From assembly GCF_011683955.1 (NCBI RefSeq), contig NZ_JAAQPI010000004.1, positions 248,001 through 312,000 of the forward strand: DNA of 64,000 bases. Reading direction: 5' to 3'. The first letter of the stretch is position 1. Every line of letters starts with the position of its first letter. The notes beneath the pieces were generated by a model. It saw only the letters and a program-made list of their open reading frames with translations, was not told the DNA's origin and made no database searches. Source of the stretch: Pseudomaricurvus alkylphenolicus (lineage in GTDB: Bacteria > Pseudomonadota > Gammaproteobacteria > Pseudomonadales > Cellvibrionaceae). Positions 14,057 to 39,685 of the stretch are shown in pieces. The position numbers and the translations under genes are program-made.

Positions 14057-14241
14057 AATCGAGTTTATGTCGTTTACTTGTATGGTCGGATTATCACACC
14101 AATTAAGAATAGTCGCAAAGTCCCCACTCCCGCCAGCGGCTTCTTCCGCCTCTCCGATAGCAGACATATGGAATATTGATTAGGGCGTCCGTCAAGTCGA
14201 TGACACTATACCTGCTCTAATCTTGCTGGAGAGACGTGTTC

Positions 14242-15957: not shown

Positions 15958-15982
15958 CTGATTCATTTTGGAGAGTGAAAAT

Positions 15983-16771
15983 ATGAAAACCTGTCTTAAC
16001 TCGCTGTTTTCCCTTGAAGGGCGCACCGCACTGATTACCGGTGGTACCAGTGGCATTGGATTGATGATGGCGCGGAGCCTGATGTTGGCAGGTGCTAGAG
16101 TGATTTTGGTCGGTCGAAATCCCGAAAACTGCCAACAAAAAATCAGCGAACTCAATGACACCATCCGCACCTCACCAACCGCCGAGTTCATCAGTGCTGA
16201 TCTTTCTAGTGAAGAGGGATTGGACATACTCGTCACCAAATTAATCTCCAGAACCGAAAAACTGTCGATTCTCATCAACAACGCCGGTATGACAGCCCAT
16301 TCGCCATTGGGCACTTACCCCGGCAGCCATTTCGACGACATTATGGCACTTAACGTCAAGACGCCTTTTCTATTGGCCCAGGCACTGTTGCCACAACTCA
16401 AAGCCAATGCGACCGCCGGGCGTCCCTCTCACATTATCAATACGGGCTCTATCGGAGGGATCGTTCACACCACACCGGACTCTTTTGCCTATGGCCCCAG
16501 TAAGGCGGCATTACACCACATGACCAAAGTTCTGGCCAAGAGACTGGCGAGCGACCATATCTTGGTCAATGCGCTAGCGCCGGGTCTCTTCCCCAGCAAA
16601 ATGTCCGCGTGGATCACCGAGGACCCCTCTACCCTCGACTCGGTTTCCCAGCAGATTCCTGTCGGGCGAATTGGGCATCCCGACGATATCGCCCGCGCAC
16701 TTATTGCCTTGGTCTCTGGCAGCTATCAGACCGGTACCATTGTCGCTCTCGATGGTGGCATGGCGCTGTAA
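15983..16771 (+). CDS. Short-chain dehydrogenase/reductase
   Basis: This classical SDR of 262 residues shows the cofactor motif TGGTSGIG, the NNAG motif, and the catalytic Y-x3-K in YGPSK; it ends with the usual GTIVALDGGMAL. The start is the ATG at 15983 with GGAGAG seven bases upstream; a TTG at 15968 is in frame but lacks a site. It lies 25 bases behind the ThDP enzyme gene and ahead of an aldehyde dehydrogenase. It probably oxidises or reduces a hydroxy-ketone or alcohol intermediate of the same pathway, using NAD(P). Confidence 0.9.
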   Translation: MKTCLNSLFSLEGRTALITGGTSGIGLMMARSLMLAGARVILVGRNPENCQQKISELNDTIRTSPTAEFISADLSSEEGLDILVTKLISRTEKLSILINNAGMTAHSPLGTYPGSHFDDIMALNVKTPFLLAQALLPQLKANATAGRPSHIINTGSIGGIVHTTPDSFAYGPSKAALHHMTKVLAKRLASDHILVNALAPGLFPSKMSAWITEDPSTLDSVSQQIPVGRIGHPDDIARALIALVSGSYQTGTIVALDGGMAL

Positions 16772-16805
16772 CGCTCGTATTTAAACCCAATTCAGGAGAA
16801 TTCGT

Positions 16806-18218
16806 GTGGATCTCAACAGAACATTCAGCATGACAGTAAACGGAGCTGCATTGGCTGGCGCCGAAACCATGGACGTGATCAACCCTGCCACCGGTGAAGT
16901 CTGCACCAACGCGCCGCAAGCATCCAAAACACAGGTTGATGAGGCCATCGCCTGCGCTAGATCGGCTTTCTCACAATGGAAGACGACCACCATCGAAGAA
17001 CGTCAGTCGTTGGTCAAACAAGCCGCCAGAATCCTGGAAGCAAATATTGAAGAGCTTGCACAGATCCTCCTTTTAGAACATGGAAGACCACTGCAAGGCT
17101 GTATGATGGAGTTGCAGGCCGCCATTCAGTACTTTGATGACTTTGCAGCCATGACCCCGGAAGTACTGGTCACCGAAGACTCGGATGTGCGCCGGGTGGA
17201 AGTCCACTACGAACCCCTGGGCGTGGTTTGCGCAATCCCCGCCTGGAACTTCCCCATCACGTTGAGTGCCATGAAAATTTGCCCAGCATTAGTAGCCGGC
17301 AACACTCTCGTACTACGCCCGTCTCCCACAACGTCGCTGACATTGTTGAGAATCGGCGAACTGCTGCGCGATGTTTTCCCTGCAGGTGTTTTTAACGTCA
17401 TCAGTGGTAACGGCCTTGGCAGTTTTCTAACCTCTCACTCGGGCTTCGACAAAATTTCCTATACTGGTTCCACCGAAACAGGCAAACAGGTCATGGCCGC
17501 CGGCGCCGACAGCCTGAGACGGATGACATTGGAGTTGGGCGGCAATGACGCTGCCATTGTCCTGCCGGACGTCGACATAGAAAAGGTTGCTCCGCAGATT
17601 TTTTTTGGCGCTTTCTTTAACAGTGCGCAGATCTGTGTTGCCACCAAACGATTATACATCCACGCTGACATCTATGAGCCCTTGCGTGATGCACTCCATC
17701 AAATTGCCAAGGCATCCAAAATGGGAGATGGTAGCGAGCCCGATACGGTATTGGGACCCATTCAAAATCAACGTCAATACCGTAGCGTCTCAGCGTTACT
17801 AGAACACGCCCAGAAAGAGGGACTCACGCTATTGACCGGCTACCAACCAGAAAATCAGGAAGGTTACTTTATTCCTGCCACCCTCGTTGACAATCCACCG
17901 CACGACAGTCGCGTTGTCACTGAAGAAGCGTTTGGTCCAATTTTGCCGCTAATTAAGTTCGACAATGAGGACGATCTTATTCAGCAGGTTAACAGCAGCA
18001 AATACGGCCTTGCCGGTGCGATCTGGGCACAAGACACGCAGAAAGCCGTGACCCTTGCTAAACGCATGGATACTGGCACCGTTTGGATTAACGAAAATCT
18101 CTATCTCCCTGCTTCCACACCGTTTGGCGGGCACAAACAATCGGGTATCGGCGTTGAGAATGGCATGGCTGGACTGCTTGGGTTTATGCAACAAAAGGCC
18201 ATTTACATTCCCAAATAA
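16806..18218 (+). CDS. NAD(P)-dependent aldehyde dehydrogenase
   Basis: This 470-residue aldehyde dehydrogenase carries the oxyanion Asn region PAWNFPITLS, the cofactor motif YTGSTETGKQV, the general-base Glu in LELGGND and the catalytic Cys in SAQICVATKR. The start is a GTG at 16806 with AGGAG seven bases upstream; the next ATG at 16830 has no such site. Third in the ThDP operon, it would oxidise an aldehyde made by the lyase or SDR to an acid, which the next gene's product could then activate with CoA. Confidence 0.93.
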   Translation: MDLNRTFSMTVNGAALAGAETMDVINPATGEVCTNAPQASKTQVDEAIACARSAFSQWKTTTIEERQSLVKQAARILEANIEELAQILLLEHGRPLQGCMMELQAAIQYFDDFAAMTPEVLVTEDSDVRRVEVHYEPLGVVCAIPAWNFPITLSAMKICPALVAGNTLVLRPSPTTSLTLLRIGELLRDVFPAGVFNVISGNGLGSFLTSHSGFDKISYTGSTETGKQVMAAGADSLRRMTLELGGNDAAIVLPDVDIEKVAPQIFFGAFFNSAQICVATKRLYIHADIYEPLRDALHQIAKASKMGDGSEPDTVLGPIQNQRQYRSVSALLEHAQKEGLTLLTGYQPENQEGYFIPATLVDNPPHDSRVVTEEAFGPILPLIKFDNEDDLIQQVNSSKYGLAGAIWAQDTQKAVTLAKRMDTGTVWINENLYLPASTPFGGHKQSGIGVENGMAGLLGFMQQKAIYIPK

Positions 18219-18241
18219 TCGGACAACTACAGGACGGAATT

Positions 18242-19780
18242 ATGCACCCAAGTCAATACGCGGCATCAACACCCGATACAGCCGCTGTTATTATGGCGGA
18301 CAGTGGCGAAACCTTGACCTATCGCCAACTGGATGATCGCTCTAACCAGCTCGCTCAACTGTTCCGTGCACAGGGTTTGGTTCGCGGTGATGTCATTGCG
18401 ATTTTGTTGGAAAACCATCCTCGCTATTTCGAAGCCTGTTGGGCCGCGCAAAGAAGCGGACTGTACTTTGTGGGCATCTCTTCGAAGCTGAACGCCGATG
18501 AGGCCGCCTATATCATCGAGGACTCAGAGGCGAAGCTGTTGATCACGTCTGCCGCCATGACGGACATTGCCGCACCGCTGGCCGAACGCCTGTCCCACGT
18601 CCATCTGTATATGCTAGATGGTGCCATTGATCCATACCAGAACTACGAGGCCAGTCTGGAAGAGTTCCTGGCACGACCTATTACCGATGAATCCGCCGGC
18701 AGCGACATGCTTTATTCATCCGGCACCACCGGCAGACCCAAGGGCATTAAACCCGCCTTGCCTGAGGCCGGCATCGACGCCGTTACACCTTTGCATCAGG
18801 TCATGACGCAGGTGCTTAAACTCAAACCAGGCTGCGTCTATCTGTCACCAGCGCCACTGTACCACTCCTCACCTCTTCGTTGGTGTATGGGCATTCATCG
18901 ACTCGGTGGCACCGTCGTGGTCATGGAGAAGTTCCGCGATGAACAGGTTCTACAGCTCATTGAACGCTATAAAGTTCAAAGTGCACAATTCGTGCCAACC
19001 CATTTTCAGCGGCTGTTAAAGCTGGAGTCGGCCACCAAGCAGAACTATGAACTCAACTCGTTGGAAGCGGTTGTGCACGCTGGTGCTCCTTGTGCCGCCA
19101 CCACCAAACGACAGATGATCGATTGGTGGGGCCCCATCATTCATGAGTTTTATGCTGGCACCGAGGGTAACGGACTTTGTTACATCAACTCAGAGCAGTG
19201 GCTCTCTCACCCCGGCTCAGTGGGCCGCCCAGTTGTGGGGAAGCTCCATATCTGCAACGACGAAGGTGAACCGGTTGCTCCCGGCGAAGAGGGCTTGATT
19301 TATTTCGAGGACGGCCCGCAATTTCATTATCACAATGATGCCCAAAAAACGGCAGAAGCACACAACCAACATGGGTGGTCAACCCTTGGTGACGTAGGAC
19401 GGGTCGACGAAGAGGGCTATCTCTATCTAACCGATCGAAAGAGTTTCATGATCATCTCAGGTGGCGTCAATGTCTATCCCCAGGAAATCGAAGATCTCTT
19501 CATCGCCCACCCCAAAGTCGCTGATGTGGCTGTCATTGGAGCACCCGATGAGGATATGGGCGAACGAGTTGTGGCCGTTATTCAACTCGAAGCAGGTCAT
19601 ACAGCTGGCGAGAGACTGAGCGAAGAACTCGTCAACTACGGCCGACAACATCTGTCTCACATTAAGGCGCCTCGACAGGTGGATTTTGTCAGCGAATTAC
19701 CTCGTCACGACACTGGAAAGCTCTACAAACGCCTGATCCGAGATCAGTATTGGCAGGGTCGAAATAGCAAGTTGATTTAG
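18242..19780 (+). CDS. Acyl-CoA synthetase (AMP-forming)
   Basis: This 512-residue member of the ANL superfamily has the phosphate loop YSSGTTGRPKG, the YAGTEGNG motif, the TLGDVGRVDEEGYLYLTDR hinge region and the C-terminal catalytic Lys in HDTGKLYKR. It makes an acyl-CoA from a carboxylic acid, ATP and CoA. An AGGACGG ribosome site precedes the ATG. It is last in the four-gene ThDP operon, 23 bases after the aldehyde dehydrogenase, and a strong terminator follows. The acid it uses is likely the product of that dehydrogenase. Confidence 0.93.
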   Translation: MHPSQYAASTPDTAAVIMADSGETLTYRQLDDRSNQLAQLFRAQGLVRGDVIAILLENHPRYFEACWAAQRSGLYFVGISSKLNADEAAYIIEDSEAKLLITSAAMTDIAAPLAERLSHVHLYMLDGAIDPYQNYEASLEEFLARPITDESAGSDMLYSSGTTGRPKGIKPALPEAGIDAVTPLHQVMTQVLKLKPGCVYLSPAPLYHSSPLRWCMGIHRLGGTVVVMEKFRDEQVLQLIERYKVQSAQFVPTHFQRLLKLESATKQNYELNSLEAVVHAGAPCAATTKRQMIDWWGPIIHEFYAGTEGNGLCYINSEQWLSHPGSVGRPVVGKLHICNDEGEPVAPGEEGLIYFEDGPQFHYHNDAQKTAEAHNQHGWSTLGDVGRVDEEGYLYLTDRKSFMIISGGVNVYPQEIEDLFIAHPKVADVAVIGAPDEDMGERVVAVIQLEAGHTAGERLSEELVNYGRQHLSHIKAPRQVDFVSELPRHDTGKLYKRLIRDQYWQGRNSKLI

Positions 19781-19836
19781 TCAGTAGCCACAGATGCAAT
19801 CATCAACTCTCCGCACTTCCCTACAGGAAGGTATTG

Positions 19837-19863
19837 GGGCCGGAGATCCGGCCCACCTTTTTT
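19837..19863 (+). terminator. Intrinsic terminator after the ThDP operon
   Basis: GGGCCGG (19837-19843) and CCGGCCC (19848-19854) form a 7-bp GC stem with a four-base loop, followed by ACC and six T's. It lies 57 bases after the acyl-CoA synthetase stop and separates the operon from the extradiol dioxygenase. Confidence 0.9.
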
Positions 19864-19967
19864 ACATCAATGGTTATCGGTGTTACCGATACCAGCGGTC
19901 TGACTTCTTGATTATGTTCCAGACCAAAATTCCCGTAAGTTAGTAGTCTCAAAAGAGGAGTCCAACA

Positions 19968-20840
19968 ATGGCAACATTAAGAAATTTAGGATACCTGGTG
20001 TTAGGTGTCAGTGACCTTCACGCCTGGAAACACTTCGCCACTGAAATCGTCGGATTTCAAATCGGTCGCGAAGACGAAAACCATGTCGCCTTGCGAATGG
20101 ACAACTTTGAACAACGCATTCTTTTGCAGAAAGACGATCGTGACGACATTATCGCTGCAGGGTGGTTACTGACAGACCCTGCAGAACTGGAGGCTTATGT
20201 TGAGCAGTTACGTGCGAGAGACGTTGAGGTTACCAAAGGTGACTCACAGCTGGCTAATCAGCGTCGAGTTGAGTCTATCTACTACTGCCAGGATCCCAAT
20301 GGCGTTCAGCAAGAATTTTTCTGCGGCCCCAAAATGGCACCGTCTACCGACCCCTTCTCCTCTAACAAAATTCACAGCAAATTTGTTACAGGAGATTTCG
20401 GTCTGGGTCACTTCGTACCGGTGGGTCCGGATTTGGAGCTCTCTAAGGATTTTTACATCAATAGAATGGGTCTGAAACTCTCAGGCTACATCAGCCCAAG
20501 CCCCGAAGTGACCGTCGTATTTACTCACGTGCCCAACGGTCGTTTTCATTCCCTGGCGACGGCTGCCATGCCCTCTCCCAAAACTCTCTTCCACATGGCA
20601 GTAGAAGTCGAGTCTCTTGACGATGTGGGTTACGCACTTGATCGTGCAAAAGCGGCTGGCATTGAAGTCACTGCAGATATGGGTCATCACCCCAATGCAA
20701 AGTCGATTTCCTTCTATATGAAGACTCCATCAGGGTTTGACATCGAGATTCTCAGCGGTGAGATCGTTATCGACGATGAGAACTGGCAGGCAGAAACCTA
20801 CCAGCAGTTTAGCGACTGGGGACATAAGCCACAGACCTGA
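19968..20840 (+). CDS. Type I extradiol ring-cleavage dioxygenase (VOC fold, BphC/HsaC-like)
   Basis: This enzyme cleaves a catechol-type ring next to the hydroxyls using Fe(II). Its 290 residues form two VOC modules, and the metal ligands of the family are present at the usual places: His148 (GLGHF), His209 (LFHMAVE) and Glu260 (GFDIE). The remaining active-site signature SISFYMKTPSGFDIE and the C-terminal DWGHKP are typical. AGAGGAG precedes the ATG. It is transcribed alone after a terminator. No ring hydroxylase lies beside it; the HsaA/HsaB-like pair at 28-32 kb could supply a catechol, but this link is inference. Confidence 0.92.
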   Translation: MATLRNLGYLVLGVSDLHAWKHFATEIVGFQIGREDENHVALRMDNFEQRILLQKDDRDDIIAAGWLLTDPAELEAYVEQLRARDVEVTKGDSQLANQRRVESIYYCQDPNGVQQEFFCGPKMAPSTDPFSSNKIHSKFVTGDFGLGHFVPVGPDLELSKDFYINRMGLKLSGYISPSPEVTVVFTHVPNGRFHSLATAAMPSPKTLFHMAVEVESLDDVGYALDRAKAAGIEVTADMGHHPNAKSISFYMKTPSGFDIEILSGEIVIDDENWQAETYQQFSDWGHKPQT

Positions 20841-27181: not shown

Positions 27182-27838
27182 TCAATGAGATTGATGGCTG
27201 ATTCCGCGGACGACGACATCTGCCACGCTGGCGACTATTTCATGGTGTTGTTCGTCATTCGCTGTTGAAAGCAAATCGATTTTAGTGGAAAGGGGTTTCA
27301 GACAAAGCGCCGCACCACCACCGTGAGCGATCATCAAAAAGACGAGCGAAGCGGAGACGGGGCGAAATTCACCTGCCGCCACGCCTTCGTCAATAATCTC
27401 TTGCAAACGAGTGCGCATGTTTTCATGAGCTGGCGTGGCAAGGATATAATCCAGCCGCTCTGAATCCCGTGAACCTTCGCTGTTAATAAGTTGCAGAATC
27501 GCCGGAAATTCCCACAATGAAAGCAGCAAATGCGAGGACGCGATACGAAGCTTCTCTGCCGCCGTGTCTACATCGCTCAAGTCACCAATATTGTCGGCCA
27601 AGCGCTCCATGCCCTGATCCACCGCGGCCCTCCAGAGCGCCTCCTTAGTACCAAAGCGGGCCGGTATCAGCCCATGGCTGATGCCTATACGCGCCGCCAG
27701 CACTCGCATCGACATGCCGTCGTAGCCCAGTTCAGCAAAGGCTGCCAGAGCCCCATCCAGTATCTCTTCGCGAGTACTGACGGATCGGTCATCACTTTTT
27801 GGGCGCCCACGTCGGCGGGGTTTAGTTGAGTGAGTCAT
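27182..27838 (-). CDS. TetR-family transcriptional regulator
   Basis: This protein has the TetR N-terminal DNA-binding domain: STREEILDGALAAFAELGYDGMSMRVLAARIGISHG in pattern, cut here by family convention around the helix-turn-helix, after a basic lead KPRRRGRPKSD. The start is placed at 27838, with GGAAAG just upstream, rather than at an ATG five codons earlier. The C-terminal ligand domain is typical in length. It is divergent from the monooxygenase operon, with a good sigma-70 type promoter between them, and upstream of the thiolase operon, so it could control either. Its ligand is unknown but likely an acyl-CoA or aromatic compound. Confidence 0.88.
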   Translation of the reverse strand: MTHSTKPRRRGRPKSDDRSVSTREEILDGALAAFAELGYDGMSMRVLAARIGISHGLIPARFGTKEALWRAAVDQGMERLADNIGDLSDVDTAAEKLRIASSHLLLSLWEFPAILQLINSEGSRDSERLDYILATPAHENMRTRLQEIIDEGVAAGEFRPVSASLVFLMIAHGGGAALCLKPLSTKIDLLSTANDEQHHEIVASVADVVVRGISHQSH

Positions 27839-27938
27839 ATTTCTTTCCAGCATAAGATAGCTGAATTTTAAGCCAAATACGCCTCATGATGAAGCATTGA
27901 AGGATCGGTTGGACTAACTTTCTTAAATAAATATACAG

Positions 27939-27968
27939 TTGACAAATTAAATTGGGCCACCCTAAACT
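27939..27968 (+). promoter_or_regulatory. Sigma-70-type promoter for the monooxygenase operon
   Basis: TTGACA (27939-27944) is a perfect -35 box, followed 18 bases later by TAAACT (27963-27968), a 4/6 match to the -10 box. The first gene of the operon starts 56 bases downstream. It lies in the TetR/monooxygenase divergent region. Confidence 0.5.
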
Positions 27969-28023: not shown

Positions 28024-29166
28024 ATGTCCAACCCTTCCGACTACATTCCCAGCGAAGAAGAATTGATCCAACGCGCCACAGAACTACTACCAATGTTAAG
28101 AAATCGAGCAGATGAGATTGACGCTGCGGGTGAAGTGCCTGAAGACATTGTGCAAACGTTTCGCGATGCGGGCTTTTTCAAGATCGTACAGCCTAGAAAA
28201 TGGGGTGGATATGAGTACAGCCCGCTCACCTTTGTACGCGTACTGATGGAGTTGGCGCGCGGCAGTGGCAGCGCGGCCTGGGTAATGATGGTGTTGGGAT
28301 CACACCAATACATCGTTGGTATCATGAGTGACGAAGCCGGTGACACTGTTTGGGGTGAAGACAACAATATCCTGTTGTCCTCCTCTTACGCGCCAGCGGG
28401 TAAGGCCACGCCAACTGAAGGCGGCTACTTGCTCAACGGCACCTGGCCGACCTCCAGCGGTTGTGCGCATGCCCAGTGGGCCATTGTGGGAGCCATGACC
28501 GAAAACGAATTTGGAGAGATGGAGCAAATGGCCTTTATTGCACCTCGGTCTGGCTGGAGTAGCCTTAACGACTGGGATGTATTCGGGTTGCAGGGTACGG
28601 GTTCGAATAATATCAAACTGGAGAATGCGTTCGTCCCTGATCATTTGGTAACGCCGCTGTTTCGCAATACATTTGACGCACGCAGCAAAGTGTACCGTTA
28701 CCCATTCCCGTTGTTGGCCATGGGAATCATTTCAGCCTCTTTGATCGGTTTTGGCCAAGGGGCGATCGATGTATTTGGTGAGCAGATCAAAGGTAAAAAA
28801 CGTACTGGCAGCAAAGATCTCTTGAGTGAAGACCCCTTTGTTCAAGCCGCGGTGGCGAATGCTCAGGCCATAGTGAACAATACCAGGGCCAAGCTGGAGT
28901 GGTGTTATCTTGAAGCAGAGCGCTTCCTCTTTAACGATCTCGAAGTGCCCCCTTCAACCATGACTCAGTTTGTTGAGATCTCGCGAACAGGTGAGCAGAT
29001 ACAGGAGGCTGTCCTGACTCTGTATAACGTCATGAGTCCATCTGTTGCTTATCGCTCTAACCCGATGCAGCGCTACTTGCGCGACATTATGGTGGGCAGC
29101 GCTCATCCGACACAGCGTTTTCTGACCGATCACGCCCGCACTTTGGGCACTACCAAACTCGCGTAA
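28024..29166 (+). CDS. Acyl-CoA-dehydrogenase-fold flavin monooxygenase (HsaA/HpaB-C2-like)
   Basis: Group D flavin monooxygenases have the acyl-CoA dehydrogenase fold and use reduced flavin from a partner reductase to hydroxylate phenols. The 380 residues begin at the ATG at 28024 after AGGAGA. The pattern DAGFFKIVQPRKWGGYEYSP, then GSGSAAWVMMVLGSHQ and later HPTQRFLTDHARTL agree with HsaA-like oxygenases rather than with true acyl-CoA dehydrogenases, which have a catalytic Glu not seen here. A flavin reductase gene lies in the same operon at 31824, which supports a two-component hydroxylase. The substrate is unknown; a catechol product could feed an extradiol dioxygenase. Confidence 0.82.
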   Translation: MSNPSDYIPSEEELIQRATELLPMLRNRADEIDAAGEVPEDIVQTFRDAGFFKIVQPRKWGGYEYSPLTFVRVLMELARGSGSAAWVMMVLGSHQYIVGIMSDEAGDTVWGEDNNILLSSSYAPAGKATPTEGGYLLNGTWPTSSGCAHAQWAIVGAMTENEFGEMEQMAFIAPRSGWSSLNDWDVFGLQGTGSNNIKLENAFVPDHLVTPLFRNTFDARSKVYRYPFPLLAMGIISASLIGFGQGAIDVFGEQIKGKKRTGSKDLLSEDPFVQAAVANAQAIVNNTRAKLEWCYLEAERFLFNDLEVPPSTMTQFVEISRTGEQIQEAVLTLYNVMSPSVAYRSNPMQRYLRDIMVGSAHPTQRFLTDHARTLGTTKLA

Positions 29167-29191
29167 CGCCAGACAAGAAGCGGAGAGCACG

Positions 29192-30292
29192 ATGCTGACC
29201 AAATACGATGACTATCCCGTGCATCAGACGGCGGACCCTATTGCCTACGCGGGTACAGACAGAAACTTCTATGACCGCTACTGGTTTAACGGTTACAGCC
29301 GCGATGGCAGCATCTTTTTTGCCTGTGCGTTGGGAGTTTACCCGAACTTAAATATCATGGACGGCGCCTTCAGCGTATTGATTGACGGAGTCCAGCACAA
29401 TCTTCGAGTGTCGCGGCATCTCAATATGGAACGGATGCATACTTGCATTGGTCCTTTGGGTGTGGAAGTGCTGGAACCACTTCAGAAGCTGCGAATTGTG
29501 GTTGATGAAAACGAACACGGTATAAGCGCCGATTTGACGTTCACGGGCAGAGTCCCGGTTGAAGAGGAACCCCGTTTTACCAAACGGCAAGGGCCCAGAA
29601 CGCTTTACGACTACACGAGGCTGACCCAAAACGGTGATTACGAAGGCTGGATCGAGGTGCAAGGGACTCGGTACGAATTACAAGGGATGACGGTTCGTGG
29701 CACCAGGGACCGTTCTTGGGGGGTACGTTACATCGTGGGCATGCCTGATCCTCAAAAAGTGCCGCCGCACGTTGATCCTCAAAGCTTCTGGCTTTGGGCG
29801 CCGCTGAATTTTGATGATAGCTGGGTGTTGCTATCGGACAGCCAGGACAGCTCGGGCGAATCCTGGAACTGGGCGGCGGTCATCGGTGGGCTTGGCGAGA
29901 GTGAGGCTTGCAAGATGAACGAACTGTCGTGGGATCTGGAATTCGAACCCGGCTTGCGACATTTACGCCACGCCAAAGCGGTCATGAAGGACAGCGCAGG
30001 TCAGAACATCGCAATAGAGTTCGATCTAAAGCAGAAATTCTACATGTCAGGTTTAGGGTATCTTCACCCCGAATGGGGTCATGGTATGAACAAAGGCGAG
30101 TTGGCGGTGGGATATGACCGCCTGGAAGTTGACCAGATATCAACGTCCAAACCGCCGTTTTACCTCCATGTTCAGCAGTTTGCTCAAGTCAGAATGAGCT
30201 TACCCGATGGAGCTACTAAAACAGGGAGTGGCGTTTTGGAGCAGGCGATCCTTGGACCTCACGCCCCGACGGGCTTGAAAGGCCTGTACTGA
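29192..30292 (+). CDS. Uncharacterised beta-rich protein next to a phosphotransferase (CrtC/DUF7064-7065-like)
   Basis: I do not recognise a defined function. The 366-residue sequence is rich in short beta-strands and aromatic residues, begins YDDYPVHQTADPIAYAG, and contains WVLLSDSQDSSGESWNWAAV and repeated Trp/Tyr-Gly patterns that recall the paired lipocalin-like halves of the CrtC/AttH group. There is no signal peptide or membrane helix. GGAGAG precedes the ATG. It lies between the monooxygenase and the phosphotransferase with small gaps, and I recall that such proteins are often near APH-type kinases in aromatic or terpene degraders. A substrate-binding or hydratase role is possible but unproven. 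Confidence 0.6.
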   Translation: MLTKYDDYPVHQTADPIAYAGTDRNFYDRYWFNGYSRDGSIFFACALGVYPNLNIMDGAFSVLIDGVQHNLRVSRHLNMERMHTCIGPLGVEVLEPLQKLRIVVDENEHGISADLTFTGRVPVEEEPRFTKRQGPRTLYDYTRLTQNGDYEGWIEVQGTRYELQGMTVRGTRDRSWGVRYIVGMPDPQKVPPHVDPQSFWLWAPLNFDDSWVLLSDSQDSSGESWNWAAVIGGLGESEACKMNELSWDLEFEPGLRHLRHAKAVMKDSAGQNIAIEFDLKQKFYMSGLGYLHPEWGHGMNKGELAVGYDRLEVDQISTSKPPFYLHVQQFAQVRMSLPDGATKTGSGVLEQAILGPHAPTGLKGLY

Positions 30293-30319
30293 CAGTCTAA
30301 TCACGCAGGGATATATATT

Positions 30320-31360
30320 GTGAGCACACTTGAACAACAATTTGCACAATACCTCCAGCACAGAATGCCCGATGCGAAGAACATTGAGGTAACCCTGACC
30401 GGACAAATCTTCGGTGGAGCGAGCCGGCAAACCTACCGCCTGAAAGTATCTTGGTCTGCCAATGGGGTAGAACAACAGCGGGGCATGATTCTGCGCCGCG
30501 AAGCCGAGTCAGGTCTAATTGACACCGAAGGTGAAACTGAATTCAGGGCCTTCGAAGCCATTCATGGAAAAGGCATACCCGTTCCCGAGGCGCTCTATCT
30601 GGAAAACGACAGTCACTGGCTGGGCCGTCCTTTTATTGTCACTTCAGAAATTACCAAAAGCCGGGCCAGCAACCCTATGACGGATGACCCATACGGCGTC
30701 GTTCGGGAGAAGGTAGGTGAACAGTTTTTTGACTACCTCGGTAAGCTTGCCACCTTCGATCCGGAGGAATTGGGTTTAACACGGATATTGGAGCCAGTAA
30801 CGCCAGAGCGGTGTTGGGAAGTAGAACTGAAGAAATGGGAAACAGTAATTAACCAGTTTCCGACTCCTGAACCCATTGCTCAAACCGCGATACGCTGGCT
30901 GCGTGCCAATCCTCCACGGCCACCAGAGCAGGTTCGAGTGGTGCATGGTGATTTTCGAACCGGTAACGTGATGGCTACGAAGGAAGGGGAAATCACGGCA
31001 GTGCTGGATTGGGAGATGGCGCATATCGGTGACCCGTTAGAGGATCTCGCCTGGGCCATTGACCCCATGTGGGGGTATAAACAACCGAATCGGGTTGGAG
31101 GTATGATACCTCGCAACGAGGCTCTACGGATCTATCAATCTCGCAGCGGTGTCGCCATCGATCACACAGATCTGGCCTGGTGGGAGATGTTCAGTCATGT
31201 GAAGGGTCTAGCGATCTGGGGCTCAGCTGCCAAAGAATTTCAGCTGGGGAACAACAATGATCCTATCATGTTGGTAGCCGGCCTGGCCCCCTTTACCACC
31301 CATGAACATATTCTAGCAAAAAAACTGCTCACACAAAGAGAGGCTCGCGGTGCGCATTGA
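30320..31360 (+). CDS. APH/ACAD10-type phosphotransferase
   Basis: This 346-residue kinase-fold protein shows the catalytic Brenner motif VVHGDFRTGNVMA and the metal-binding VLDWEMAHIGDP. Relatives of the ACAD10/LvaA type phosphorylate the hydroxyl of 4-hydroxyacyl-CoA so that it can be moved or eliminated in beta-oxidation; others act on antibiotics. A catabolic role is far more likely here, given the operon. The start is a GTG at 30320. Its stop overlaps the start of the next small gene by eleven bases, as in kinase-partner pairs, which suggests the two proteins act together. Confidence 0.82.
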   Translation: MSTLEQQFAQYLQHRMPDAKNIEVTLTGQIFGGASRQTYRLKVSWSANGVEQQRGMILRREAESGLIDTEGETEFRAFEAIHGKGIPVPEALYLENDSHWLGRPFIVTSEITKSRASNPMTDDPYGVVREKVGEQFFDYLGKLATFDPEELGLTRILEPVTPERCWEVELKKWETVINQFPTPEPIAQTAIRWLRANPPRPPEQVRVVHGDFRTGNVMATKEGEITAVLDWEMAHIGDPLEDLAWAIDPMWGYKQPNRVGGMIPRNEALRIYQSRSGVAIDHTDLAWWEMFSHVKGLAIWGSAAKEFQLGNNNDPIMLVAGLAPFTTHEHILAKKLLTQREARGAH

Positions 31361-31799
31361 TAATGAGATCATACTCAAGAACTTAAAGCGAGTCCTGCAT
31401 ACCAAAGTCGTCCCCGCCGTTGGAGACACCTATGTCAGAAGCGGGGCAGGTGTGGTAGGTATGTGTTGCGATCTGCTGGCTCAGCAAGCCGATGACGCTG
31501 CAGATATCGTTTACGAAGACAACCGAGGTATGCAAGGACTCTTTCTTAAAGCACTCAGCGTTGTAAGCTGTAACGATCTGCGTCAACAGTTGGAAGACGC
31601 CGGTACTTGGCAATCGCCTTCGATAAGGATTCCGGACTTGACAGCGCTCAATGCCAAATTGGCAGAACTTCTGATTGAATTGCAAATTTGGCTGGAATCC
31701 AACGAGGCTTCAGGTGCGAGCTCTTTAGAGTTTGAGATTCTCGAACAACTGGAAAGAAACGCCAAGCGTCGACTGCTGATTTTGGGCGCGCTGGGTTAA
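31350..31799 (+). CDS. Small helical protein coupled to the phosphotransferase (LvaB/DUF6285-like?)
   Basis: This 149-residue protein starts at a GTG at 31350 with GAGAGG upstream and overlaps the end of the phosphotransferase gene. The predicted fold is helical: ILKNLKRVLHTKVVPAV, then VGMCCDLLAQQADDAADIV and a C-terminal EILEQLERNAKRRLLI. The layout resembles LvaB, a roughly 12-kDa protein that is required by the LvaA kinase of levulinate breakdown and also follows its kinase gene; LvaB is shorter. The resemblance is in context and pattern, not in a clear alignment. It may stabilise the kinase. Confidence 0.5.
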   Translation: MRIDNEIILKNLKRVLHTKVVPAVGDTYVRSGAGVVGMCCDLLAQQADDAADIVYEDNRGMQGLFLKALSVVSCNDLRQQLEDAGTWQSPSIRIPDLTALNAKLAELLIELQIWLESNEASGASSLEFEILEQLERNAKRRLLILGALG

Positions 31800-31823
31800 T
31801 TGAATAATTATTAGGAGAAGTCC

Positions 31824-32303
31824 ATGTCTATTGACACACGTTCATTGCGCGATGCGCTTGGGAAGTTTGCCACAGGTGTCTGCGTGATCACCAGCGAGAT
31901 AGCGGACGCTTCCCCCATCGGCATGACCATCAACTCTTTCGCCTCGCTATCTCTGGACCCACCACTGGTGATTTGGAGTATCGCAAAGACCTCGGATTGT
32001 TTTAATCACTTTGAGTCGACAGAGCGATACGCCGTCAATATTTTGAAAGAAGATCAACAGGCGTTGTCCGGACGCTATTCACGCCGAGGTGACCACAATC
32101 TGAAGGAAGGCGACTGGACGAGAGGCAACACCGATTGCCCGGTTCTCAGAGAATCATTAGCGTGTTTTGAATGCGAGATATTTGAAAGACTCGATGGTGG
32201 GGATCACGTTATCCTTGTGGGTCGGGTTCTTGAGGCCAATCATGAGGCGGACGAAAAGCCTCTGCTGTTTTTTGCTGGCCAATACCGATCAATAGCTGAT
32301 TAA
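31824..32303 (+). CDS. Flavin reductase (HpaC/HsaB-like)
   Basis: This 159-residue protein matches the short flavin reductases that supply reduced FMN or FAD to two-component monooxygenases: LRDALGKFATGVCVIT at the start, MTINSFASLSLDPPLV with the flavin-binding Ser region, and DHVILVGRVLEA near the end. TTAGGAGAAG precedes the ATG. It lies in the same operon as the HsaA-like oxygenase at 28024, although three genes separate them, so it is its likely partner. It uses NAD(P)H. Confidence 0.88.
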   Translation: MSIDTRSLRDALGKFATGVCVITSEIADASPIGMTINSFASLSLDPPLVIWSIAKTSDCFNHFESTERYAVNILKEDQQALSGRYSRRGDHNLKEGDWTRGNTDCPVLRESLACFECEIFERLDGGDHVILVGRVLEANHEADEKPLLFFAGQYRSIAD

Positions 32304-32321
32304 ACTTCCGAGAGAAAATCT

Positions 32322-32912
32322 ATGAAACTCTACTATACCCCAGGTGGTTGTTCGTTGGTTCCGCATATAATTGCAAGAGAAGCGGATTTGGATATTGAAC
32401 TAATCAAAGTGGACGTCAAAACCCACAGGGTAGAAGATGGCACCGACTACTTTCGAATAACTAAGCTGGGACTGGTGCCTTTATTGATTCTCGACGATGA
32501 ATCTCGCCTATCCGAAGTGCAAGTGGTCGCACAATATCTCGCCGACCAACGACCTCAATCCGAGTTGGCACCCCTAGAAGGCACGTTTACCCGATATCAG
32601 CATCAGCAGTGGTTGAGTTTTATCAGCACTGAAATTCACAAGAGCTTTCGTCCATTGATTCGTAGTTCGGATACAGCGACAATCTCTGAAACCAAAGATA
32701 GGTTAATGAATCGTCTGGGATACATTTCTGATATGTTAAAAAGCGATTATTTGATGGGAGAAACCTTTTCAGCAGCTGATGCCTATTTATTCGTCACATT
32801 GTTATGGGCGAAACACCTACAGTTGAGTATTCCTTCTAAGCTAGAGGTATTCTTCGAAAGAATTGCAGCTCGGCCGGCTGTACAAACGGCGCTGAGTGTG
32901 GAGGGATTATAG
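32322..32912 (+). CDS. Glutathione S-transferase, beta class
   Basis: The N-terminal thioredoxin-like domain reads MKLYYTPGGCSLVPHIIARE, with the beta-class cysteine at position 10. The pattern then follows bacterial BphK/GstA enzymes: a cis-Pro in GLVPLLILDD, SEVQVVAQYLADQ, and a C-terminal helical domain. At 196 residues it is close to the usual 200. Genes of this class often sit in aromatic-degradation operons, where they remove reactive or halogenated intermediates. It is the last gene of the monooxygenase operon, 18 bases after the flavin reductase. Confidence 0.88.
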   Translation: MKLYYTPGGCSLVPHIIAREADLDIELIKVDVKTHRVEDGTDYFRITKLGLVPLLILDDESRLSEVQVVAQYLADQRPQSELAPLEGTFTRYQHQQWLSFISTEIHKSFRPLIRSSDTATISETKDRLMNRLGYISDMLKSDYLMGETFSAADAYLFVTLLWAKHLQLSIPSKLEVFFERIAARPAVQTALSVEGL

Positions 32913-34527: not shown

Positions 34528-35817
34528 CTATCCCATCAGTTGCGGTAAAAACAGGGCGATTCCCGGGAACAATGCCAATATCACCAGTGACACCATCATC
34601 AGTAATACATAGGGCAAAGCACCGAGTACAACATCCGAGAACTCGGCTCCGGTAGCGCCTTTGATTACCATTAAATTTAGTCCAACCGGGGGGGATATTA
34701 AAGACATTTCCAGATTGATCACAAGCAGAATACCGTACCACATGCGGTCAATGCCGAGCATGTCCAACACTGGTAGCACCAGCGGTGTAGTGACCAGTGT
34801 GATAGAGGCCCCCTCTAAAAACATGCCGAGGATAAACAGGAAAAACATCAGACCGCATAAAAAACCGAGAGCGCTGAGTTCCATCTCCGCTACCCATTGC
34901 AGCATAAATTGAGGGGTTTCTGCCAGCACAATGACATGGCCAAAGACTGCCGCGCCGGCAATGACGGCGAACACCATGCCGGAGGTTTCCGCGGAGCGTT
35001 TAGCGGCGGCGTGGCAATCGGAGAGTCTAAAACTCTTATAGGCCAGAGTGGCGATACCCAACGCCAGTAACACACCGATGGCGCCGGCTTCCGACGGGGT
35101 GAAGACACCTCCGTAGAGTCCGGCAATAATCAGTACGGGAAGACCCGCCACTGAGAGCACCCGCCACTTGTTCGACCCGACAGCCTGGTTAAGATCTTTG
35201 CGCCCATACTCCTGATCGCATTGCTCTGAAGGACGATGTGCCAGGCGATCGTAGCTTGCAAATAGCGCTATCAACAGCAAAGCCGGACCCAAAGCGGCAA
35301 TAAACAGTCCGGAGATGGATACATCGGCGATAACGCCGTATACAATCAATGCAATCGAAGGCGGAATCAGAATACCCAATGTTCCGGAAGCCGCGACCAG
35401 TCCATAGGCAGAGCGTTTGGAATAACCGTGTTTGATCATCTGTGGGATTGATGTATCGCTCAGGGTCACCGCCGTCGCCACAGAAGAACCGGATACCGCC
35501 GAGAATACCGTGGCCACGCCAATGGTGGTAAAACCCACGCCGCTACGAACTCTGCCGAGCAAGCGGTTTACGCTGTTATAGACATCAGCCAGCGCATTCG
35601 TCTTCAGCAGAATTTGCGCCATCAGCGCAAACATGGGAATGGCGACAAATGCATAAGTATCCAGACGCGCAAAAATAATATCCGCCAAATGCTCCAAACC
35701 GACCCATCCCTCAATGGCCACCAGGGCCGCCATAGAGGATAAACAGAGCGCGACGAACACCGGCACCCCCAGGCACAGCAGGAGCAACAAAAAGGTTATT
35801 ACCAGTAATTCACCCAA
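34528..35817 (-). CDS. dctM: TRAP transporter large permease subunit (DctM)
   Basis: This 429-residue inner-membrane protein has about twelve to thirteen hydrophobic segments, the normal topology of DctM, which carries the organic-acid substrate with sodium. Motifs include AIPMFALMAQILLKT, SGSSVATAVTL and SLISPPVGLNLMVIKG. It overlaps the small subunit gene by eight bases and is followed directly by the LysR gene. Uptake of a carboxylate is the expected role. Confidence 0.93.
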   Translation of the reverse strand: MGELLVITFLLLLLCLGVPVFVALCLSSMAALVAIEGWVGLEHLADIIFARLDTYAFVAIPMFALMAQILLKTNALADVYNSVNRLLGRVRSGVGFTTIGVATVFSAVSGSSVATAVTLSDTSIPQMIKHGYSKRSAYGLVAASGTLGILIPPSIALIVYGVIADVSISGLFIAALGPALLLIALFASYDRLAHRPSEQCDQEYGRKDLNQAVGSNKWRVLSVAGLPVLIIAGLYGGVFTPSEAGAIGVLLALGIATLAYKSFRLSDCHAAAKRSAETSGMVFAVIAGAAVFGHVIVLAETPQFMLQWVAEMELSALGFLCGLMFFLFILGMFLEGASITLVTTPLVLPVLDMLGIDRMWYGILLVINLEMSLISPPVGLNLMVIKGATGAEFSDVVLGALPYVLLMMVSLVILALFPGIALFLPQLMG

Positions 35818-36340
35818 CGCTTTGTACCTCTTTATTATCAGGCTGAGACAAAAGATCCCGGAACAATGCCAGGCATGAAAGCGACATCAAGACGCCCCCC
35901 AAGGGCAGACTTAACTGGCTGACCCAGTCGGGTATTCCGAGCAGGCTGGGCGAGCGGATCTGGTATTCATAGAGAAACACCACCGATTGCCAGCCGGATA
36001 CCAAAATGGAAACGGATACGACCAAACCACACAACACAGAAAAGAGTACACACAAGCGTGCCCTTTTCGCCGCCATGCGATTAACCAGCAAGTCCACACT
36101 GACGTGCCCTTTTCGCTCGATCAGGTAGCTGGTCACCAACATCGATAACAGCGGAATAAAGGTAGAGATCAACTCGTCGATCCAGACAATAGGCAGCGCC
36201 AGCAGGTATCTGCTGAACACTCCTGATACGATCAATATCGCCATAACCACGATCAATAGCGCACTGAATTGAATGGCAAGCTCATTGAGTAATCGTACTG
36301 ACGATCGAAAGCGTCCTGGCAGAGGAAGTGCTTTATTCAT
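35810..36340 (-). CDS. dctQ: TRAP transporter small permease subunit (DctQ)
   Basis: This protein of 176 residues has four hydrophobic helices, with the family's WIDELISTFIPLL segment in the second. The start is placed at the ATG at 36340 because AGGAGG lies upstream within the end of the binding-protein gene; the longer frame to 36397 runs into that gene. It overlaps both neighbours by eight bases, which suggests coupled translation of the three TRAP subunits. Confidence 0.9.
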   Translation of the reverse strand: MNKALPLPGRFRSSVRLLNELAIQFSALLIVVMAILIVSGVFSRYLLALPIVWIDELISTFIPLLSMLVTSYLIERKGHVSVDLLVNRMAAKRARLCVLFSVLCGLVVSVSILVSGWQSVVFLYEYQIRSPSLLGIPDWVSQLSLPLGGVLMSLSCLALFRDLLSQPDNKEVQSVG

Positions 36341-37379
36341 CGTTGTTTTCCTCCTGCAATGAACGCCCCCAGGGGCGATCGGCTCGCCACTGTTCAAAGT
36401 GCTTTAGCAACGCCAACCCTTTTGCACCAGAGGTCTGAAGAAATGACTGGCGCCACTCATCCATGACTTGTGCGCGCAAGACGGCAATGTCGGCTTTTGT
36501 CTGTTGATATACCTGCATACCGCTGCTTGCAATCATATCGGGCAGGCTTGCATCTTCGCGTTTGGCCAACAGAACAGATTGCTGTTCAAGCCAGCGGCCT
36601 TCTTCCGAAATAATCTGCTTTACGGATTCATCCTGCTGATCCCACCATTGCTTGTTCACCACCAACGAGAAAACGGTAACAAAGAGTGGAGAAATGGTGC
36701 ACCAGTCCTGCACCTCAAAGTACCGGCGCCGGTAGACCGCCGGCAAGGTGGTCACCGATGCCTGAATCAGGTTGGTTTCCAGCGCCTGATAGGCCTCACC
36801 GCCACTCATGCTGACCGGTGCTGCGCCAAGGGCCATTAGTGAGGCATTGATGACCGGGTTCATGCCCCGAATCTTGAGTTGCCGGAAGTGCTCAGGAGTC
36901 ACCAGAGGGCCGTTGTTAGACGTAAACCCCTGATTGTCGGTCACCCATACCCAACCCAGGTTGTGAACTCCAACGGGCGCAAACATGTCTGAGTCAGCGA
37001 GCGCGGGTGAGCGCAGAAAATCACTGAATTCCTCATAGCCTGAGAACCCGAAGGGTAAGGAAAAAATCCCCATCTCGGGAATAGTCAGCCCCCAATCCAG
37101 ATTGGAGATCATTGCGGCATTCACGTGCCCACGAATCACTGAAGGTACCATGCTTTTGGTACGCAGTAACTGGTTGCCGGGATAGATCTTGATGGTCAGG
37201 CGGCCCTGCGCCCGTTGTTCGATGCGTTGCGCCCACTCGTCAACCAACCGAGCGATCGGCATCTGACCGGGCACGCTGTGAGTCAGGCGTAGAATGTCGG
37301 TGTTTGCGGTGAGCCACTGTGGCAGGCAGAGTGCCACAGTGGTCACCAGCGCCCGCAGCAATGACTGTCGATATACCAT
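36333..37379 (-). CDS. dctP: TRAP transporter substrate-binding protein (DctP)
   Basis: This periplasmic binding protein of about 348 residues has a signal peptide (SLLRALVTTVALCLPQWLTA) and the family's substrate-binding Arg in HFRQLKIRGMNPV, followed by GGEAYQALETNLIQAS. The start is placed at the ATG at 37379, with AGAGGA upstream, eleven codons inside the longest frame. It is the first gene of the TRAP operon and delivers an acidic substrate to DctQM. The nearby CoA-transferase and CoA-ester lyase suggest a short branched or unsaturated dicarboxylate, but that is inference. Confidence 0.92.
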   Translation of the reverse strand: MVYRQSLLRALVTTVALCLPQWLTANTDILRLTHSVPGQMPIARLVDEWAQRIEQRAQGRLTIKIYPGNQLLRTKSMVPSVIRGHVNAAMISNLDWGLTIPEMGIFSLPFGFSGYEEFSDFLRSPALADSDMFAPVGVHNLGWVWVTDNQGFTSNNGPLVTPEHFRQLKIRGMNPVINASLMALGAAPVSMSGGEAYQALETNLIQASVTTLPAVYRRRYFEVQDWCTISPLFVTVFSLVVNKQWWDQQDESVKQIISEEGRWLEQQSVLLAKREDASLPDMIASSGMQVYQQTKADIAVLRAQVMDEWRQSFLQTSGAKGLALLKHFEQWRADRPWGRSLQEENNDE

Positions 37380-37410
37380 AGAAAATTCCTCTTTGGACCT
37401 CGTGCCGATC

Positions 37411-37517
37411 AACGGCGGATTACGCCGCGTTGCGGCTATTCCGCCCTACGGGTTCGGTACTTAAGGTGGTTGTACAGAATTCGTAGGGCGGATTCGCGTA
37501 AGCGTAATCCGCCGTTT
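37411..37517. repeat. Pair of inverted REP-like palindromes (REPIN-type)
   Basis: The segment at 37411-37450 (GGCGGATTACGCC... to CCGCCCTACG) and the segment at 37482-37517 (CGTAGGGCGG... to AATCCGCCGTT) are near-perfect reverse complements. Each also carries an internal palindrome. This is the common GGCGGATTACGC...CCGCCCTACG repeat of proteobacteria, here as a head-to-head pair between the third TonB receptor and the TRAP operon. Confidence 0.8.
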
Positions 37518-37552: not shown

Positions 37553-39685
37553 CTAGAAGTTCATCTCGAGTGAAAGCCCCCATTCCTGCGGTCGGCCGAC
37601 GTCAACCGTCGTCGCTCCGAAGGGGGTGTTCAACAGGTTCAATCCACTGGTCAGGTACTCTTCATCATTCAAGTTGGTGGCGAACAGTGATACTCGATAG
37701 TCCTCATCCTCGCTGGTATAAGTCAAGCGCGCACTGAGCAACCCAAATGCCTCCTGGGTAACCGAGTTGGGCTCCGGTGTCACCAAACGATAATCATCCT
37801 TCCAACCCCAATCCAGTCGCGCACTCAAGTTGCCGCCGGCAAACACATCGTTGAGCAAGTACTCCGCACCCACCGAATAGGACGCATCCGGTGAACGGGC
37901 CAGCTGTGTCCCTTCAGAAATATCTTCGTTGCCGCCGTCGTCGGTAATGCGGGCATCCATTAAGGCGCCGGCCATATTCAATTGGACGTTTTCACTCAAC
38001 AACAGAGTCAGATCAAACTCGATACCGTCGATCTCTGCAGTGCCCACATTGGTCACACGAACATCCTGCCCTACCAGTGCCGGAAGCTGCAGATCCGTGT
38101 AATCCGTGTGAAACAGAGCCGCATTCAACCGTGCACGGCCGTCCCAGAAGTCGCTCTTTACACCGATCTCGTAGGTGTCGGCCAACTCTTCATCGAATGG
38201 GTTTAGACCGTCATAAGGGGCGCCTGGAATGGGTGAGCGATCATTAAAGCCTCCGCTCTTGAAACCGCTGGCGGCAGAGGCGTACACCATGAAATCCTCA
38301 GACCAATGATAAGTGGTAGAAAGACGATAGGTGACGGAGGAGAACTCTTCCTCAGCTTGGCCGGTTACCCCGTTGCGCTCACTGATAATCCACTTGTCTT
38401 CACGGGTTCCACGTACGCCCAAGGTAACATCCAGTTTATCGGACACGTGAATATTGGCTTCGCCAAACAGAGCGTAGCTGTCGGTCTCTTCTTCGAACGC
38501 CAATTGATTTAGCCCACCCAAAGTATTGCGCTGCTGTCTACGATCATCCGTGGGGTTTTCGTTGTACATAAACAGACCCACCAGATAGTCGACCTTGTCG
38601 TCAAACAAGCTGCCCTGTAGCTGGAATTCCTGCTGAATCTGATCATGGTCGCGAACCACCAGTTCATCGCGCAGCACGGCCGCAGAACCATCAAAGTCCA
38701 CGATAAAGCTGCTGTCGAAGGTACGGTAAGACGTCAGGGATTTCAGCACCAGATCACCCAGCTCCCATTCTATGACCATGCCCAGTCCGTAGCCTTCATA
38801 ATCCGAGAAGGTGTCGGCACTCAGACGGCTGGTAAACAAGTCTCCAGTGGGAGTAGGTACCGGCTCCCCGGACCCGGACAAGAGCGGCGCACTGGGGTTG
38901 CCTTCGATAATATTCTGCGCGCCGCCGTTGGACTTGCTGCTGACCCAGTCATAGGTAAAATTCACTTGCAGATCCTGATTGACATCCCACATCAGCTGAC
39001 CGCGAATAGCAGAAACGTCCGTATTGCCCAGATCCACCGGGTTATTGGGGTCAAAGACGTCTTTGACATGTCCGTCGCGGGTCTTGCTCAGAGCGGACAG
39101 ACGCACCGCCATATCGTCCGTCAGGGGCAGGTTCACCATGCCTTCGACGTCCAGGCGGTCAAATTCGCCGACGGTAAACTTCAGACGCCCCTCCTTTTCG
39201 TTGGAAGGGCGTTTGGAGACATAGTTAATGGCACCGCCAATGGAGTTCTTACCAAACAGGGTGCCCTGGGGGCCCCTCAGAACCTCAATGCGTTCGGCAT
39301 CCACCAAGTCGATCAGACCACCGTCACTCTGTCCCAGGAAGATGCCGTCAATATAGGTGCCCACCCCGGACTCCGCTGTAGACGCACTGCGATCCTGACC
39401 GATACCGCGAATAAAGATACTGGAAATGGATCCCCCGAAACCGCCACCGGAGCCGATGGTCAGATTGGGAATCACTGTGTTCAGGTCACCCAGGTTGGAA
39501 ATATTGCGCTTTTCGAGGTTTTCCGCCCCCATGGCCACCACAGACAGCGGTACGGACTGCATATCCTCCTCAACCCGGCGCGCCGTTACCTGGATTTCCT
39601 CGATCTGCAGTGCTTCGTTAGCCAGGGCCACGTCGCCCCCGCTTAGAGCCCCTGCGATGCTCAGTGCCAATACCGCTCTTTTCAT
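37553..39685 (-). CDS. TonB-dependent outer-membrane receptor
   Basis: This 710-residue receptor has a signal peptide (MKRAVLALSIAGALSGGDVA), a TonB-box-like IEEIQVTARRVEEDMQ, the plug motif VLRGPQGTLFGKNSIGGAINY and a barrel ending GLSLEMNF. It lies upstream of the TRAP operon on the same strand and divergent from the CoA-transferase gene, 247 bases away. It may provide outer-membrane entry for the TRAP substrate or its precursor. The substrate is not known. Confidence 0.93.
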   Translation of the reverse strand: MKRAVLALSIAGALSGGDVALANEALQIEEIQVTARRVEEDMQSVPLSVVAMGAENLEKRNISNLGDLNTVIPNLTIGSGGGFGGSISSIFIRGIGQDRSASTAESGVGTYIDGIFLGQSDGGLIDLVDAERIEVLRGPQGTLFGKNSIGGAINYVSKRPSNEKEGRLKFTVGEFDRLDVEGMVNLPLTDDMAVRLSALSKTRDGHVKDVFDPNNPVDLGNTDVSAIRGQLMWDVNQDLQVNFTYDWVSSKSNGGAQNIIEGNPSAPLLSGSGEPVPTPTGDLFTSRLSADTFSDYEGYGLGMVIEWELGDLVLKSLTSYRTFDSSFIVDFDGSAAVLRDELVVRDHDQIQQEFQLQGSLFDDKVDYLVGLFMYNENPTDDRRQQRNTLGGLNQLAFEEETDSYALFGEANIHVSDKLDVTLGVRGTREDKWIISERNGVTGQAEEEFSSVTYRLSTTYHWSEDFMVYASAASGFKSGGFNDRSPIPGAPYDGLNPFDEELADTYEIGVKSDFWDGRARLNAALFHTDYTDLQLPALVGQDVRVTNVGTAEIDGIEFDLTLLLSENVQLNMAGALMDARITDDGGNEDISEGTQLARSPDASYSVGAEYLLNDVFAGGNLSARLDWGWKDDYRLVTPEPNSVTQEAFGLLSARLTYTSEDEDYRVSLFATNLNDEEYLTSGLNLLNTPFGATTVDVGRPQEWGLSLEMNF

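Follow-up and report, generated by a model that had tools for sequence, protein, structure and literature searches.

Six same-strand genes at 28024–32912 of a 64,000-nucleotide stretch of contig NZ_JAAQPI010000004.1 from the marine bacterium Pseudomaricurvus alkylphenolicus (the window, whose numbering is used throughout) probably include a three-gene, ATP-dependent dehydration cassette embedded between the two parts of a flavin monooxygenase. The cassette specifies a protein of the 25-phosphosteroid lyase (25-PSL, or Rv3169) family, a small-molecule kinase of the APH/ACAD10-LvaA type and a small protein, P149. With the LvaB-like P149 holding or activating it, the kinase would phosphorylate an alcohol (most likely tertiary) on a bulky hydrophobic substrate, and the lyase would then eliminate the phosphate to leave an alkene. 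Judged by their families, the flanking monooxygenase and reductase would most likely add a hydroxyl group to a phenolic ring, either of the same intermediate or of the next, and the glutathione S-transferase (GST) at the end of the operon may trap reactive products or electrophiles. An initial annotation of this DNA had proposed that hydroxylation and phosphorylation are combined here, with a beta-rich protein as an extra step; these were good guesses, but the predicted role of that protein as a lyase, and with it the probable dehydration, was missed.

The beta-rich product of 29192–30292, previously annotated as unknown, belongs to the Rv3169 family (NF053593, 392.2 bits against a cut-off of 150), and its predicted fold matches the 25-PSL/Rv3169 family across the full length. 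Nine candidate active-site residues (H11, R29, R101, E126, R128, R143, D173, R179 and H297) are invariant in 36 lyase-family sequences, and several recur in 25-PSL when the two are aligned. The protein is predicted to be a 25-PSL-family lyase that eliminates phosphate. In steroid degradation, a kinase phosphorylates the tertiary C25 alcohol and a separate lyase has been argued to eliminate the phosphate, giving an alkene (PMC8449060). The available text of that paper gives the lyase gene as then unknown, and the enzyme is still termed putative in the available part of PMC11061730; 25-phosphosteroid lyase is now named in PDB records, and structures of this lyase type were released only in 2026. 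The initial annotation knew of no described pathway with this gene set; the phosphorylation/elimination route has been described for 25-hydroxysteroids. A second, distant lyase-like and kinase cluster lies elsewhere in the host genome (L184:7609-10224; contig C11, ~1162000-1164800), with a TonB receptor beside it and no P149 labelled.

Among 16 P149-associated kinases, including that of the window, H209, D211, R213, N216 and D230 are invariant, and the HGD-R-GN and LDWE motifs are invariant or nearly so. A profile of these kinases matched structures in the order 3dxp, 9o56, 3ats (which we take to be Rv3168), ACAD11 (8v3v; 1.1e-23 for its kinase domain) and then 9fsg (presumably the 25-hydroxysteroid kinase, a point on which the PDB record is silent). 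In a kinase tree, all partner-bearing kinases kept (19 with P149, four with other small open reading frames (ORFs) and 29 with DUF6285 proteins) fall into one 54-leaf clade of modest support (0.755) that also holds two partnerless host paralogues; the P149 kinases by themselves have a support of 0.999.

P149 of the window gave no significant match in Pfam or NCBIfam, DUF6285 included. Its relatives form a family (20-row alignment), and a single-chain prediction shows five helices (predicted local distance difference test score of 88). DUF6285, of which LvaB is presumably a member, was represented by a profile of 32 aligned proteins taken from the fetched loci. The hhalign comparison of the two families scored 44.1 (92.4% over 91 columns), and 42.8 after the three best members were dropped, while 200 column shuffles reached at most 21.8 and reversed profiles 16.8 and 17.9. 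When the DUF6285 profile was searched against 8383 ORFs, the five best non-members were all P149 proteins (E 0.009–0.65), and the reverse search with the P149 profile placed DUF6285 proteins among the best non-members (E 0.008–0.023). Pfam DUF6285 itself is matched directly, and weakly, by two of 22 P149-family members (best E 0.011). We conclude that P149 is a putative LvaB-like kinase partner, remote and divergent, and its position behind the kinase suggests that it may bind the kinase and be required by it. The kinship to LvaB/DUF6285 suspected in the initial annotation is therefore supported as a remote homology, and by the place of the kinase in the tree.

An observation on loci L125 and L128-L144 is that DUF6285 is fused to the kinase C-terminus in 18 of the 31 DUF6285-bearing kinases found, and stands alone behind the kinase in the other 13, in 12 of them within 20 bases. 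The small-partner theme may be wider than P149, because other lyase-adjacent kinases (L035:4982-9695, L029:5430-6958) directly precede ORFs of 162–175 amino acids that the P149 profile hits marginally or misses. One locus binned as Caulobacter (L057:101-3080) has two P149 proteins: the first precedes the lyase, the second follows the kinase.

The lyase, kinase and P149 genes recur together. Of 207 relatives of the lyase, the best 80 loci were kept; P149 is present in 19 of these and the kinase is directly ahead of it in every case. In 12 of the remaining 61, the kinase profile hits something less than 3 kb away, and several of these hits are weak. Of the 19 P149-kinase pairs resolved (window and L028 counted; a distant 20th pair, L034, set aside), 15 share 4 bases, two (both Pseudomaricurvus) share 11 bases, one is 1 base apart and one has an unclear start. 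The 11-base overlap first noted in the window is exact (31350–31360), and that of P. alcaniphilus is of the same length. A lyase-independent survey with the P149 profile alone, against 398 Pseudomonadota genomes, matched five genomes besides the host; in all five the lyase and kinase are adjacent and the kinase is directly ahead of P149. The nearest cassette-bearing relative is P. alcaniphilus, in which the cassette stands without the flavin pair.

Other oxygenases accompany the cassette elsewhere. Two of the five surveyed genomes show the order lyase, divergent cytochrome P450, kinase, P149, and seven of 24 P149 loci (19 plus five) carry a P450 with 42% or more identity to the one from Parvibaculum (flank lengths differ, and some P450s are ~6 kb off); the best P450 in the 61 P149-less lyase loci is 31% identical. 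The Parvibaculum enzyme is closest to P450terp (458 bits), followed by 3tkt and P450tol, and then CYP125 (287 bits). P450terp is CYP108A1, which converts alpha-terpineol to 7-hydroxyterpineol (PMC7794910), and alpha-terpineol breakdown is said to pass via oleuropeic acid or borneol (PMC4109377). No CYP108-like P450 was found in the host genome (best 33%), and one Hyphomicrobiales locus carries a carotenoid-cleaving dioxygenase ahead of the lyase. Terpineol and oleuropeic acid bear a 2-hydroxypropan-2-yl group, as in a 25-hydroxysteroid, and dehydration of this group by the cassette is put forward as a hypothesis. Behind the P149 of one P450-bearing cassette are, as judged by eye, an apparent DUF35 protein and a thiolase (L198:6741-8325), a combination familiar from side-chain aldol cleavage in steroid breakdown.

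In the window, the families first proposed for the oxygenase, kinase, reductase and GST were all borne out by profile matches (PF01636, 112 bits, for the kinase). The oxygenase, most likely starting at ATG 28024 behind an AGGAG, is HsaA-like with an acyl-CoA-dehydrogenase fold (PDB 2rfq, E 9.7e-61), and scores below the cut-off of the HsaA equivalog model NF045629 (248.8 bits of 450). The flavin reductase scores 147–159 bits against HpaH-reductase, HsaB and FerA models, all under cut-off, and is likely to be its partner. Distant HsaA-like genes were found in two P149-less lyase loci (L087, 31%; L030, 25%). As the species is named for alkylphenol use, one reasonable candidate for the substrate is a phenolic tertiary alcohol.

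Several observations weigh against the proposed scheme. The 9fsg structure, assumed to be the 25-hydroxysteroid kinase, matches the kinase profile at 68 bits, below 3dxp, 9o56, 3ats and 8v3v. A PDB search, in a comparison without an LvaB structure, returned no clear structural relative of P149, and the individual P149/DUF6285 sequence matches are each weak (best E 0.008). Lyases ~50% identical to that of the window occur at L048 and L051 with no kinase or P149 seen; at L048 the contig breaks off right after the lyase, and at L051 2.6 kb follow without either gene. At none of the other 24 P149 loci was an HsaA-like gene, reductase or GST labelled beside the cassette, over distances of up to 6 kb from the lyase or in 14-kb stretches; the labels around lyase loci come from BLAST against a small seed set that misses distant genes. 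Because the host genome is the one case with the flavin pair and GST labelled next to the cassette, the oxygenase link could reflect co-regulation and not one pathway. What the sequences show is the order and families of the genes, the predicted lyase fold, the conservation of the cassette and a remote homology between P149 and DUF6285; the reactions, a common substrate, binding of the kinase by P149 and co-transcription are inferred.

That possibility, in which the cassette acts as proposed but has been inserted into a co-regulated, separate aromatic pathway formed by the HsaA-like pair and GST, is rather unlikely yet deserves consideration. It would account for the 24 P149 loci, P. alcaniphilus among them, whose cassettes have no flavin pair, and the host has six further HsaA-like genes elsewhere (E < 1e-20). 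The cassette splits the oxygenase from its reductase, yet the gaps stay at 18–27 bases, which favours a functional linkage, as does the presence of a P450 within the cassette of two further genomes. One separate ring-cleavage cluster of the host (L188:11986-18811, contig C70) comprises an HsaA-like oxygenase, a TonB receptor, a BphC/HsaC-like dioxygenase and an HsaD-like hydrolase.

The levulinate-type route of the initial annotation, in which a 4-hydroxyacyl-CoA is phosphorylated and then dephosphorylated toward beta-oxidation, is very unlikely. ACAD10 and ACAD11 phosphorylate such substrates (PMC11342911; PMC12440821), LvaA with LvaB is said to act on 4-hydroxyvaleryl-CoA, and growth of Pseudomonas putida on levulinate requires both lvaA and lvaB (PMC6692424), so that the LvaB-like P149 and the ACAD11 match of the kinase speak for it. 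However, none of the six annotated genes of the operon specifies a CoA ligase or an LvaC-type dehydrogenase, and a lyase takes the place of LvaC; a lyase of the 25-PSL family adjoins P149 in all five genomes found without a lyase query (and, by selection, at 19 loci). Slightly less probable again is that the beta-rich protein is a plain AttH-fold hydratase/dehydratase or cyclase that uses no phosphoester, the kinase acting on some other substrate. Inactivation of an antibiotic or phenolic toxin by the kinase is extremely improbable: the APH fold and weak matches to macrolide and aminoglycoside kinase models, all far under cut-offs, are outweighed by the catabolic neighbours, the conserved lyase and partner, and the better matches to ACAD11-type kinases.

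The features of the locus are collected in Table 1. The intergenic gaps (25, 27, −11, 24 and 18 bases) suggest that the six genes are co-transcribed. The clear promoter announced earlier has a good match (10/12) behind it, but similar sites occur in the region at chance frequency (six found, 5.5 expected, standard deviation 2.5). The divergent TetR-family protein is likely to regulate the operon, by analogy with Rv3167c, a TetR gene that adjoins and represses the Rv3168-Rv3169 operon of Mycobacterium tuberculosis (PMC5340868). G+C is 0.445 in the GST gene, below the 0.496–0.530 of the remaining five genes.

Table 1. Features of the P. alkylphenolicus operon and its upstream region (window positions).
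Feature	Position	Strand	Evidence
TetR-family regulator, divergent from operon	27182..27853	-	PF00440, E 7.9e-11
Promoter-like site TTGACA-18-TAAACT	27939..27968	+	10/12 matches
Oxygenase part (380 amino acids) of an HsaA-like two-component flavin monooxygenase	28024..29166	+	NF045629, PDB 2rfq
25-PSL-family (Rv3169 family) protein, predicted phosphate-eliminating lyase	29192..30292	+	NF053593
APH/ACAD10-LvaA-type small-molecule kinase	30320..31360	+	PF01636, 112.1 bits; catalytic motifs intact
P149, five-helix small protein, LvaB/DUF6285-like predicted kinase partner	31350..31799	+	hhalign against DUF6285
Flavin reductase, likely oxygenase partner	31824..32303	+	PF01613, E 5.1e-40
GST	32322..32912	+	NF007831 (GstA), 200 bits (cut-off 198)

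The host genome comprises 8,876,682 bases in 70 contigs. Near the operon, a row of genes at 14236–20840 (thiamine pyrophosphate enzyme, short-chain dehydrogenase/reductase, aldehyde dehydrogenase, FadD4-like ligase and BphC/HsaC-like extradiol dioxygenase) is likely to be an aromatic or alkylphenol degradation cluster, its ligase lying ~8 kb upstream of the operon. Genes for components of a tripartite ATP-independent periplasmic (TRAP) transporter and for a TonB receptor (34528–37412 and 37553–39685) adjoin the operon, and possibly specify an uptake system for its substrate.

Among the closest known systems is that of Sterolibacterium denitrificans, whose anaerobic degradation of cholesterol involves a 25-hydroxysteroid kinase and a 25-phosphosteroid lyase, and with which the window shares the lyase family and fold, a kinase of the same broad APH superfamily and the logic of phosphorylation followed by elimination. 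The window cassette adds an LvaB-like partner, its kinase profile is nearer to ACAD11 and 3ats than to 9fsg, and an O2-dependent flavin monooxygenase is found where molybdenum hydroxylases act in S. denitrificans. Kinase and lyase are adjacent here, whereas the available text of PMC8449060 gives no lyase candidate near the S. denitrificans kinase gene. The LvaA/LvaB system of P. putida likewise has a kinase followed by a small partner, the partners being remotely homologous and the partner-bearing kinases falling in one clade, but the window operon has a lyase and no LvaC-, LvaD- or LvaE-like gene. Rv3168-Rv3169 resembles it in that a TetR gene adjoins an operon, here of two genes, that includes a member of the lyase family, the one after which the NCBI family is named; P149 was absent from the mycobacterial loci fetched, where any kinase match within 3 kb was distant (24–36 bits). 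HsaA/HsaB, the steroid-ring phenol monooxygenase, has the same oxygenase and reductase families, but the operon lacks HsaC and HsaD, and the host has a more complete HsaA-BphC-HsaD-like cluster at another place in its genome.

ATP-dependent dehydration itself is known for 25-hydroxysteroids; what would be new is that an LvaAB-type kinase pair drives dehydration of the 25-PSL type within an oxygenase operon. This offers a concrete reaction for genes annotated as "Rv3169 family protein" and for the family-less P149, ties an LvaB-type partner to a second, different type of pathway and, through the CYP108 link, provides a candidate for the dehydration step of alpha-terpineol breakdown. More broadly, and with about even chances, the lyase, LvaA-type kinase and LvaB-like P149 may be a portable aerobic ATP-driven dehydratase, plugged into different oxygenases by lineage (CYP108-like P450, HsaA-like flavin monooxygenase, carotenoid-cleaving-type dioxygenase) for the breakdown of compounds whose tertiary alcohol is hard to remove, for instance in a terpineol-type 2-hydroxypropan-2-yl group. 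If so, 25-PSL chemistry would be a widespread catabolic strategy rather than a speciality of anaerobic steroid degradation, and LvaB-like partners would be a superfamily of kinase subunits. Bacteria would then be spending ATP, even with O2 present, to rid plant compounds and pollutants of tertiary alcohols, by means of a cassette that can be recognised from sequence.
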